NCBI RefSeq assembly: GCF_000017185.1
Contig: NC_009635.1
Coordinates: 1,201,189 to 1,265,188 of the forward strand
From: Methanococcus aeolicus Nankai-3
GTDB lineage: Archaea; AGJL01; Methanococci; Methanococcales; Methanococcaceae
Reading direction: 5' to 3'
DNA length: 64,000 nt
The translations under genes were made by a program, and so were the position numbers. Below are positions 40,274 to 44,628 of the stretch, piece after piece. The notes beneath the pieces are model-generated. The model was given only the letters and a program-made list of their open reading frames with translations, ran no database searches and was not told the origin of the DNA. The number at the start of each line of letters is the position of its first letter. The first letter of the stretch is position 1.

Positions 40274-40349
40274 GTAAGAATACGAAATATTCATAAGGCA
40301 AATATTGATGGCGAATATAATTAAATAAATACATAGGCGAAAAAATTTA

Positions 40350-40366
40350 CAAAATCAAAGATTTTG
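40350..40366. repeat. Three-base-loop palindrome in the ilvC leader
   Basis: CAAAATC-AAA-GATTTTG, within a larger imperfect dyad (AAAAAATTTA before, GAATTTTTTT after), ends 34 bases before the ilvC start codon. It could fold in the mRNA leader; a regulatory effect is not shown. Confidence 0.6.
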
Positions 40367-40400
40367 AATTTTTTTCCCACATAACAAAGAGAGTGAAACT

Positions 40401-41390
40401 ATGAAAGTATATTATGAAGAAGATGCAAATTATGATGCAGTAAAAGATAAAACAATAGCTGTAATAGGATACGGAAGTCAAGGAATGGCTCAGTCATGCA
40501 ATATGAAAGATAGCGGATTAAATGTAATTGTTGGATTAAGACCAAATGGAGCATCATGGGAAAAGGCAAAAGCAGACGGACATACAGTAATGAGTGTAGA
40601 GGAAGCAGCAGAAAAAGCTGATATTATACATATACTCATACCCGACGAAGTTCAAAAAGATGTTTATAACAACCAAATAAAACAACATTTAACAGAAGGA
40701 AAAACACTTTCATTCTCCCACGGATACAATGTTCATTTTAAATATATCGACCCCATAAAAGGAGTAAATGTAATTATGGTGGCTCCAAAATCCCCCGGGG
40801 CAATGGTAAGAAGAACATACACAGAAGGATTTGGTGTTCCAGGATTAGTTTGTGTAGAAAGAGATGAAACAGGAGATGCATTAGACATAGCACTTGGAAT
40901 GGCTAAGGCAGAAGGATTAACAAAAGCAGGAGTAATTAAAACAACATTCAAAGAAGAAACAGAAACAGACCTTTTCGGAGAACAAGCTGTTTTATGTGGT
41001 GGAGTTACAGAACTTATAAAAGCAGGATTTGATACCCTTGTTGAAGCTGGATACTCACCAGAGATGGCATATTTTGAAACATGCAATGAGTTAAAATTAA
41101 TCGTAGATTTAATATACCAAAAAGGATTGGCTGGAATGTGGAATGATGTATCTAACACAGCAGAATACGGAGGATTTGTTACAAGAGAAAGAGTAATAAA
41201 TGAAGAATCCAGAAAAGCGATGAGAGAAATATTAAAAGAAATCCAAAATGGTAAATTTGCAAGAGATTGGGCATTAGAAAATGTAAGTGGAATACCACAT
41301 TTAAATGCTATGAGAAGATTAGAAGATGAGTCCTTGTTGGAGACAACAGGTAAAAAATTAAGAAAAATGTGTGGATTACAAAAAGATTAA
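40401..41390 (+). CDS. ilvC: Ketol-acid reductoisomerase
   Basis: Converts acetolactate or acetohydroxybutyrate to the dihydroxy acid in valine, leucine and isoleucine synthesis, with NAD(P)H and Mg2+. 329 residues, the short class I form: Rossmann motif [13 protein letters not shown] (about 20-32), [29 protein letters not shown] (about 130-149, in parts), metal ligands in [10 protein letters not shown] and [18 protein letters not shown]. The ribosome site is GAGAGTGAAAC. No GGAGCTCC occurs in the gene. Codon choice looks stronger than the neighbours, consistent with high expression. Confidence 0.96.
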
Positions 41391-42600: not shown

Positions 42601-44130
42601 ATGAAGACAATATTGGGAAAATTGCATTTAAGATGGTGTATGGATTGTAATATGCCTGTTCTTGATAAAAAATGTGGAATATGTGGAAAAAACACAACGG
42701 AGGTAAAAATAACTCCACCAGCCGACCCGAGACCAGCATTTGACGAAGATATAACCATGATAAGTAAAATATTAAAAAATCAATTTGGAATAACATTAAA
42801 TAACAACGGACAAAGCAATATATTCAAAAATAAAATAGTTTTAATAAATAAAATCCCTGGAACTGACTATATGAAAGAGATAATGTTGGATGGGATATTA
42901 TTTGGGATTATAAAATATAACGAGGAAAAAAACACATGGGTAATAATGCCATCTGTTGATGGGGCTCGTAGAATAATCAATGAAAATGCCAATAAAAAAT
43001 TAATTGTAATAAATAGAGAAGTAATACCATTTGTATTAAAAAAACATGCTTCTATATTAAGACCGGGAGTAATATGGGCATCAGAAGATATTGAAGTTGA
43101 AGATGATGTAATAATATTGGTTGAAAATGATAATAACAAAAACAACGACGATTTTAAAGATATTGATGTTTTAGGTGTTGGAAGAAGTAGAATGAGCTAC
43201 CATGAAATAGTCAATTCAGAAAAAGGAATGGTAGCAAAAGTTAGAAAATCCGAAAACCCGAAACCTGCAAATATATTGAAAGAAACAGGAGCTCCCAGCG
43301 AAAACATTGAAAAAATGATTGAAGCTAATAAGGAACCAATGGCTAAATTTATTAATAATTCCGTAGGTTTTATGAGGAACACCATAAAAGAGCGAACAAA
43401 TAAACCGCCAGTTGTGGCATATTCGGGCGGAAAAGATAGTCTTGCCGTGTTATTATTGGCATTTGAGGCATTTAACAATGAAAATATAAACTTTGATGTA
43501 ATATTTTCGGATACAGAATTGGAACTCCCTGAAACTTTAAAAAATATACAGGATATTGAGGAAACATACGGCATAAACATAATAACGGCAAAATCTACGG
43601 AATTTTGGAAGAAATTGGAAGAAATGGGCCCTCCTGGTAGAGATAATAGGTGGTGCAGTGAAGTATGTAAAATGAAGCCACTTGAAAAAATAATAAATGA
43701 AAAATATGAAAAAGGTTGTTTAACTTTTGTAGGGCTTAGGAAATATGAATCAATGAATCGTTCAAAAAAGCCGAGAATTTGGAGAAGTCCTCACATTAAA
43801 AAACAAATGTTATCAGCACCAATATTAAATTGGACGGCTATGCATGTTTGGATATATTTGTTTATGAAAGGAGCTCCCTACAATAAATTATATGAGCAAT
43901 GTTTTGATAGGGTAGGATGTTATATGTGTCCAGCTATGGAATTGGGGGAAATGGAGCTAATTAGAAATATTTATCCTGACTATTGGAAAAAATGGGATAA
44001 TTTTTTAGAAAAATATGCAGAAACTCACAATTTGGATGATAATTGGATTAAAAGCGGTTGGAGATGGTCATATAAACAAGAAAATAACAAAAATAATATT
44101 CAGGATAAAAGTATGGGAACTTATGAATAA
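42601..44130 (+). CDS. PAPS-reductase-like PP-loop protein (MJ0066-type)
   Basis: 509 residues. N-terminal zinc-ribbon-like cysteines (RWCMDCNMPVLDKKCGICGK), a central region of about 180 residues that may include a PUA-like domain, then a PP-loop adenosine-nucleotide domain with PVVAYSGGKDSLAVLLLAFE (about 273-292) and a C-terminal segment with DNRWCSEVCKMKPLEK and GCYMCPAMELGEM, cysteines able to hold an iron-sulfur cluster. The family resembles PAPS/APS reductase but archaeal members of this build are uncharacterised; sulfur transfer or tRNA thiolation are alternatives. AGGTAGAATT precedes ATG 42601. It follows the TauE-type permease. Confidence 0.75.
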   Translation: MKTILGKLHLRWCMDCNMPVLDKKCGICGKNTTEVKITPPADPRPAFDEDITMISKILKNQFGITLNNNGQSNIFKNKIVLINKIPGTDYMKEIMLDGILFGIIKYNEEKNTWVIMPSVDGARRIINENANKKLIVINREVIPFVLKKHASILRPGVIWASEDIEVEDDVIILVENDNNKNNDDFKDIDVLGVGRSRMSYHEIVNSEKGMVAKVRKSENPKPANILKETGAPSENIEKMIEANKEPMAKFINNSVGFMRNTIKERTNKPPVVAYSGGKDSLAVLLLAFEAFNNENINFDVIFSDTELELPETLKNIQDIEETYGINIITAKSTEFWKKLEEMGPPGRDNRWCSEVCKMKPLEKIINEKYEKGCLTFVGLRKYESMNRSKKPRIWRSPHIKKQMLSAPILNWTAMHVWIYLFMKGAPYNKLYEQCFDRVGCYMCPAMELGEMELIRNIYPDYWKKWDNFLEKYAETHNLDDNWIKSGWRWSYKQENNKNNIQDKSMGTYE

Positions 44131-44272
44131 TATAAATACAAATATAATATTATATAATAAATAATTATAAAATATAATATAAATATTTTATGCGCCAATA
44201 GATAATAAAGAACATAATTAAAAATCAATAAAATCAATAAATGAATATTTATTATTGATTAACTAGAAAATC

Positions 44273-44318
44273 GGTGATAATATCTACTAAAAATCTAGAT
44301 TTTTAGATTATTATCACC
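44273..44318 (+). promoter_or_regulatory. Long hairpin carrying a ribosome-site mimic
   Basis: The left arm GGTGATAATATCTA and right arm TAGATTATTATCACC enclose a perfect 20-base palindrome CTAAAAATCTAGATTTTTAG (44287-44306). The left arm repeats exactly the true ribosome site and start (GGTGATAATATG at 44335) of the next gene, within a 15-base direct repeat AATCGGTGATAATAT. The right arm TATTATCACC (44309-44318) can therefore pair either with the left arm or with the real ribosome site. This would permit mutually exclusive folds, if transcribed. Confidence 0.55.
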
Positions 44319-44343
44319 TAAAAATAAAAAAATCGGTGATAAT

Positions 44344-44628
44344 ATGCCTAAAATGGTACTACTTCCAAAATTGACAATGGCTCTTGGGGGATATATAAGG
44401 GAGACTACAATGCCCTATACTGAAGACGAAGCAAAACCATTTCCGCATAGGAATGTCATTGTAGGAAATCCTAGCAATGAACCCATAAAAATAGATGTTC
44501 CTGCCTATGATGATGGATGGGTTGAAAGACATAAAAATCTTGGTTTAATCGTTGTTCCAGTTAGTGAAGATGATGATTTTGTCGGAATGTATAAAATGGT
44601 TTTAGAAAAAGTTAAAAGAAGTGAATAA
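44344..44628 (+). CDS. Small conserved methanogen protein (possibly EhbP-like)
   Basis: 94 residues: PKLTMALGGYIRETTMPY, NVIVGNPSNEPIKIDVPAY and GLIVVPVSEDDDFVGMYK. The pattern (a beta strand with GGYIRE, then NPxxEPIxIxVP) recalls the small EhbP subunit of energy-converting hydrogenase B, but I am not sure. The ribosome site GGTGATAAT is duplicated in the hairpin upstream. It lies 35 bases before the HAD gene and is probably cotranscribed with it. Confidence 0.6.
   Translation: MPKMVLLPKLTMALGGYIRETTMPYTEDEAKPFPHRNVIVGNPSNEPIKIDVPAYDDGWVERHKNLGLIVVPVSEDDDFVGMYKMVLEKVKRSE

Follow-up and report, generated by a model that had tools for sequence, protein, structure and literature searches.

The leader of the ehbP gene holds two copies of a Shine-Dalgarno (SD) sequence and, between them, a strand complementary to both. 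The question raised by this locus is whether such an arrangement is a translational switch or the trace of an insertion. The window, which is the whole stretch of 64,000 nucleotides that was analysed, belongs to an archaeal genome of 1,569,500 bases, assigned to the Methanococcales by its genes and relatives. The gene itself is a 94-aa ORF identified by Pfam as EhbP.

From a repeat analysis of the window, the 11-nt SD copy GGTGATAATAT occurs at 44273-44283 and again at 44335-44345, where it comprises the SD and the AT of the start codon (ATG, 44344-44346). An earlier note on this DNA had placed the two SD copies within 15-base direct repeats; both copies are exact, while the repeat measures 17 nt (AAAATCGGTGATAATAT, 100% identity, 44267-44283 and 44329-44345, spacing 62 nt). 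The same note held that the intervening strand can pair with either copy, and this is borne out: the inverted arm TATTATCACC (44309-44318) complements the first SD copy at 100% over 44273-44282, and a 20-nt stretch (44299-44318) pairs with the second (44335-44354) at 80%. The 3' end of the 16S rRNA encoded in the same window reads GGATCACCTCCT; the local SD is therefore GGTGAT, and the arm repeats ATCACC, the anti-SD sequence. A 141-nt RNA covering the locus (44240-44380) has a folding energy of -28.1 kcal/mol (z -4.7), which none of 200 shuffles equalled. The parts of the locus are as follows.

44273..44283, + strand: first SD copy (decoy), GGTGATAATAT, followed by C where the ATG has G
44284..44334, + strand: insert core of 51 nt with inner hairpin, anti-SD arm and A-rich spacer, delimited by comparison with other copies and with the insert-free sites of relatives
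44287..44306, + strand: inner palindrome CTAAAAATCT/AGATTTTTAG, the type A inner hairpin (inverted-repeat analysis, covariation helix 2)
44309..44318, + strand: anti-SD arm TATTATCACC, which pairs with either SD copy (repeats, covariation, folding)
44319..44334, + strand: A-rich spacer TAAAAATAAAAAAATC (sequence, comparison of copies)
44335..44345, + strand: second SD copy, which serves ehbP and runs into the AT of its start codon (repeat analysis)
44344..44628, + strand: ehbP, 94 aa, energy-converting hydrogenase B subunit P (PF10622, E 4e-37)

A family of inserts at gene starts

Sequence and covariance searches of 36 Methanococcales genomes, with a strong match defined as a covariance E of at most 1e-3, identified strong matches at 16 gene sites in three genomes of one genus: six in the window genome (G000), four in G023 and six in G029. 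All 16 copies are in the sense orientation and end at the ATG of a gene on the same strand. The genes at these sites were named by Pfam, and the G029 rubredoxin by its own sequence. Judged from sequence, the ehbP repeats are one copy of a family of hairpin-forming inserts found in a few related methane-making archaea and placed exactly at gene starts.

BLAST of the 80-nt element against its own genome returned four long copies, at ehbP, an Amidohydro_1 gene that we take to be dadD, a PK alpha/beta-domain gene and a histidine phosphatase, the last three being 85-91% identical to the ehbP query (E 1e-17 to 2e-26). The same element was found by BLAST of the 36 genomes before rubredoxin in G023 and G029. 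Covariance models R1 (8 units, the ilvC copy left out) and R2 (14 units, the ilvC copy included) added members with other inner hairpins: mtrB and S6e in G023; L18a, S6e, purB (a Lyase_1 gene, presumably purB) and a response regulator with three tandem units in G029; purB and ilvC in the window genome; and the Obg-like GTPase sites of G023 and G029. The host genes, ehbP, ilvC, purB, mtrB, rubredoxin, S6e, L18a and others, are unrelated. For R2, an alignment of 21 rows (A4) was reduced to its 14 best rows (A5; E at most 4e-5) by dropping antisense and weak rows; A5 also leaves out tandem units of L187 and L009 wherever these overlap with a better match. A second member lies within the window.

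40328..40406, + strand: ilvC member, type C and more diverged (R1 35.3 bits, E 3.4e-5; R2 61.6 bits), GGCGAAAAAATT ... AATTTTTTTCCC with inner hairpin ACAAAATCAAAGATTTTG
40401..41390, + strand: ilvC, ketol-acid reductoisomerase (KARI_N and KARI_C)

In a 464-kb sample of the window genome, R2 recovered the six known copies at E of at most 1e-9 and the next match stood at 0.035, the scores of R2 for its own training rows being high by construction. A single match at E of at most 1e-3 was found outside the three carriers (L191 in G033, E 2e-4); it has a hairpin and ATCACC and shows no clear SD copy. Other genera gave weak matches only, and L192 to L195 and L197 to L200 appeared chance-like by eye. 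Short repeats are common in AT-rich DNA, yet chance is hardly credible as the source of the arrangement. A scan of the 464 kb for a word, its complement and the word again (k=8) returned 11 clusters against 0-3 in five shuffles, and these proved to be the known copies, their mirror readings and one weak extra place. Together with the z-score of the ehbP RNA and the E-values of the three further copies in the same genome, this speaks against chance; the BLAST copies in the window genome and the 36 genomes and the covariance matches refute it.

Each member has the same order: an SD copy ending in AT, an inner hairpin, the anti-SD arm, an A-rich spacer, and the gene's own SD copy with its ATG. 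In the upstream copy, AT is never followed by G; the next base is C or A, or T at ilvC. Four sequence types of inner hairpin were distinguished by eye. Between copies from unrelated genes and species, the type A inner hairpin and spacer agree to 85-99%, whereas the repeats on either side of each core are specific to the locus. Units also occur in tandem, with two before dadD, whose inner hairpins differ, and three before the response regulator (L187), of which units 2 and 3 are identical. Repeated insertion is therefore suggested; with at most three tandem units (L187), no array-like organisation of the tandem satellite or CRISPR-like kind was found.

Related structures were also observed. At L196 (G000:C1:1436646-1436712 and upstream), two tandem 44-nt copies with a different hairpin (AAAAAAAGGTTAAGCTAATCAGAGATTAGCTAAACC...) lie directly 5' of an SD and ATG and follow the same logic. 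At L224 (G029:C20:12114-12301), about 165 nt with several hairpins lie between two copies of GTGAAAATAT, 5' of ribulose-phosphate 3-epimerase. Composite inserts also stand 5' of obg in G000 (L223) and G033 (L226). A 27-nt stretch in G023 (L067, G023:C2:1128952-1128978) is identical to the element's spacer, SD and ATG and lies before a gene that has no hairpin; it may be a remnant or an ordinary leader.

A conserved leader peptide was considered for type A copies and rejected. Only before the PK-domain and histidine phosphatase genes is the upstream SD followed by an ATG and a frame of seven codons; the other type A copies have CTG or CTA in place of this ATG, and neither rub23 nor ehbP keeps the frame intact.

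Insert-free sites and the duplicated target

Presence and absence of the insert at the same gene in near relatives was found at seven sites (ehbP, dadD, the PK-domain gene, rubredoxin, S6e, mtrB and the response regulator), with the empty sites judged from the SD and gene start only, the A-rich leaders not being alignable base by base. The window genome has the insert at dadD and ehbP, where G023 and G029 have none, and at the PK-domain gene, where G023 has none and no G029 orthologue was found. Conversely, rubredoxin has a single SD and no insert in the window genome and carries one in both G023 and G029; S6e, mtrB and the response regulator likewise have a single SD in the window genome and are filled in relatives. 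The obg site is filled in G023 and G029 and holds a composite form in G000 and G033, whereas three loci from another genus lack the insert; some insertions may therefore be old or recurrent.

The earlier note had proposed a comparison of the locus in relatives. Of 30 ehbP loci fetched, the 17 on the plus strand were readable, and the element was present in the window genome's own leader and absent from 16 of 16 relatives, a result that supports insertion and weighs against a dedicated ehbP switch. At dadD, G035 has a palindrome-rich insert flanked by a duplicated end of the upstream gene (L117), as seen by comparison with G034 (L118).

The SD copies match at 11/11 positions in 10 of the 19 tabulated copies, at 10/11 in two and at 9/11 or less in seven, which are mainly type C and composite copies (ilvC, purB, obg). 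The poor matches include obg29 and S6e23 (8/11 each) and obg00 (7/11); at ilvC the expected pair, spaced by 56 nt, matches at 7/11 and is not the best match of that member. The repeats follow the locus, with AATAT at ehbP, ACTAT at rub23, AACAT at L18a29 and ATTAT elsewhere; that of mtrB23 is GAAATTAT. In rub29, rub23 and mtrB23 the stretch shared by the SD copies has its boundary immediately before GGTG, as would be left by a target duplication of 11 nt that ends at AT^G. When 11-mers copied upstream of ATG and of other triplets were counted, ATG as a whole was not singled out against other triplets (12 of 18,403 ATG sites, others being similar); only the three known SD copies stood out.

The suggestion in the earlier note that the direct repeats mark the insertion of a palindrome is thus well supported by the comparisons, through the copies at other genes, the insert-free sites and an 11-nt duplication fixed to the start codon.

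Folds of the leader RNA

Several copies lie where transcription would be expected. One stands between mtrC and mtrB inside a gene run, one 12 nt after an ORF that we take to be RNase Z-like, and one between a presumed desulfoferrodoxin gene and rubredoxin. From these positions, at least the hairpins inside gene runs are probably transcribed. A scan for bacterial-type intrinsic terminators, which is of little value for archaea, found none.

In the mRNA, the upstream SD copy would pair with the anti-SD arm around the inner hairpin; this decoy pairing would hold the arm away from the true SD, with the A-rich spacer coming next. If the decoy were blocked, the arm may mask the true SD instead. Across the family, the decoy SD, the inner hairpin and the arm vary together. 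The decoy hairpin is paired in 97.3% of cells (score 0.390 against 0.138 in shuffles), and 9 of its 19 pairs have two-sided compensatory changes against a mean of 6.1 in shuffles and 3-5 when the helix is slid, in an alignment of family members that was fitted to the structure, so that the covariation is partly by construction. At S6e, which is filled in G023 and G029, the decoy helix differs at three positions, all of them still paired via G-U, while the true SD has drifted, a small sign that the decoy pairing itself may be kept.

By default, the computed accessibility of the true SD is modest (0.03-0.65). With the first SD copy barred from pairing in folding at 37 °C, the mean accessibility of the true SD was 0.00-0.05 in 10 of 13 units; masking was incomplete in the three type C units (purB, obg and ilvC). 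Barring the decoy pairing costs 1.7-8.4 kcal/mol over all 13 leaders at 37 °C. The two folds are close in energy at ehbP, with the decoy hairpin winning over 44240-44380 and the masked fold over a shorter stretch, and L18a29 and rub23 also favour the masked fold at 37 °C. Since the winning fold depends on the amount of upstream sequence included, a bistable leader is a fair reading for ehbP from these models.

These folds bear on a true translational switch, in which a ribosome, an antisense RNA, a protein or 5' processing takes the decoy and the freed arm masks the true SD. Masking in most units upon blocking of the decoy, the energy that this costs and the near balance of the ehbP folds would favour this reading, as would the pairing of the arm with the second SD copy, retained in 94.0% of cells and nearly as good as that with the first (95.6%). 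The latter, however, follows automatically once the SD is duplicated, and masking is incomplete in type C units. Moreover, the genes share no pathway, orthologues in sister species do without the element, and neither a conserved ligand-like domain nor an Rfam match was identified: at gathering scores Rfam recognized only rRNAs in the window, and no riboswitch, thermometer or leader at E up to 1 over 44130-44420. A switch is therefore unlikely. As to the earlier claim of alternative folds that free or mask the true SD, the mutually exclusive folds were obtained by computation, with masking falling short in the three type C units, and regulated switching is hypothetical.

Origin and significance of the inserts

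Insertion at translation starts is indicated by the position and orientation of the copies, by the duplication and by presence or absence in relatives, and the family is best explained, with reasonable though not high probability, as short (about 50 nt) palindromic insertion elements targeted to start codons. Insertion would duplicate some 11 nt that end at the AT^G of the start codon. In this way the gene would keep an adjacent full SD and ATG, and the upstream copy would lose the start codon, becoming mostly ATC or ATA. We infer that the family moves as an element and that the decoy pairing is retained mainly for sparing the host gene; a mild effect of the insert on translation is possible.

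Several features count against an element. Direct repeats that match an internal arm are unexpected for an ordinary transposon, and the seven tabulated copies with a match of 9/11 or less fit the duplication poorly. The insert ends (CTAC.../...AAATC) show no inverted symmetry, since the inverted repeats lie inside the element. No transposase was identified, and BLAST of the 80/81-nt element against its own genome and the 36 genomes gave the start-codon copies and short low-scoring matches only, with no larger element or partner transposon found by a search that could miss a diverged partner. A viral origin was rejected as well, as an 18-nt piece occurs in 32 viral stretches and none of them matches R2 at E up to 1; a search of plasmids gave no match.

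Three accounts of the match between arm and target remain. Selection may keep the arm from pairing with the true SD, the arm may have been generated from the target, or the target may have been chosen through pairing with the arm. At ehbP (AATAT) and mtrB23 (GAAATT) the arm agrees with the local SD. In rub23 and obg29 it keeps the family sequence despite the local repeats, which speaks against generation from the target. The same observations bear on an origin without any mobile element, in which the SD region is duplicated in tandem, a quasi-palindrome is corrected in place by template switching, and the product spreads by recombination or gene conversion between A-rich leaders. Such an origin would account for arms that match the local SD and for the identical units before the response regulator. 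In its favour, a 43-nt tandem duplication that carries the SD, giving two SD copies with no hairpin, occurs before ehbP in another genus (L097 in G015). It is nevertheless distinctly unlikely, given the arms of rub23 and obg29 and the type A hairpins and spacers that are nearly alike across unrelated genes and species inside locus-specific repeats.

Within the insertion reading, the arm could be a guide complementary to the SD, by which tiny non-coding elements find ribosome-binding sites through base pairing and insert at AT^G, where the 11-nt duplication restores the site. The arms of the subfamilies (TAATATCACC, TGTTATCACC, ATTTTTTCAC and AAATTTCACC) would then address SD variants, and the hairpin would shield the host gene from the element's own anti-SD. 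This proposal is speculative and quite improbable as it stands.

The inserts may be compared with several known systems. ERIC, REP/BIME and Rickettsia palindromic elements are short, non-coding, hairpin-forming and multicopy and can enter transcripts, all of which applies to the start-codon inserts. To our knowledge, repeats of the ERIC and REP kind have no fixed relation to the SD, whereas every strong copy of the insert is sense, lies at a start codon, duplicates the SD and has an arm complementary to it. MITEs are short non-coding inserts flanked by target duplications, and the start-codon inserts share this organisation with a duplication of about 11 nt that is constant in length in the exact copies; unlike MITEs, they have no terminal inverted repeats and no partner transposon detected by BLAST, and an internal arm matches the duplicated target. 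Presence and absence at the seven gene sites is what mobile elements in general display. Translational riboswitches and RNA thermometers exchange SD and anti-SD strands, as the arm of the insert does in choosing between two partners of which one masks the SD, but the inserts share neither a pathway nor a ligand domain and come and go at the same gene in sister species. Finally, the guide sequences of IS200/IS605 and the EBS/IBS of group II introns recognize targets by base pairing with the element. Recognition of this kind would explain the agreement of arm and target; in contrast to those systems, the inserts show a target duplication, and no protein, ribozyme or catalytic RNA was identified for them. 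Searches of an open-access library, judged by titles and the openings of abstracts, gave no description of such a family.

The repeat family is tied in position to the translation start. Its insertion preserves the ribosome-binding site instead of destroying it, and a repeat that spreads in this way, leaving genes intact, looks unusual. Built-in anti-SD alternatives also come to sit before housekeeping genes. Two questions become testable: whether the inserts are harmless passengers or modify translation, and by what means a short non-coding repeat locates start codons.
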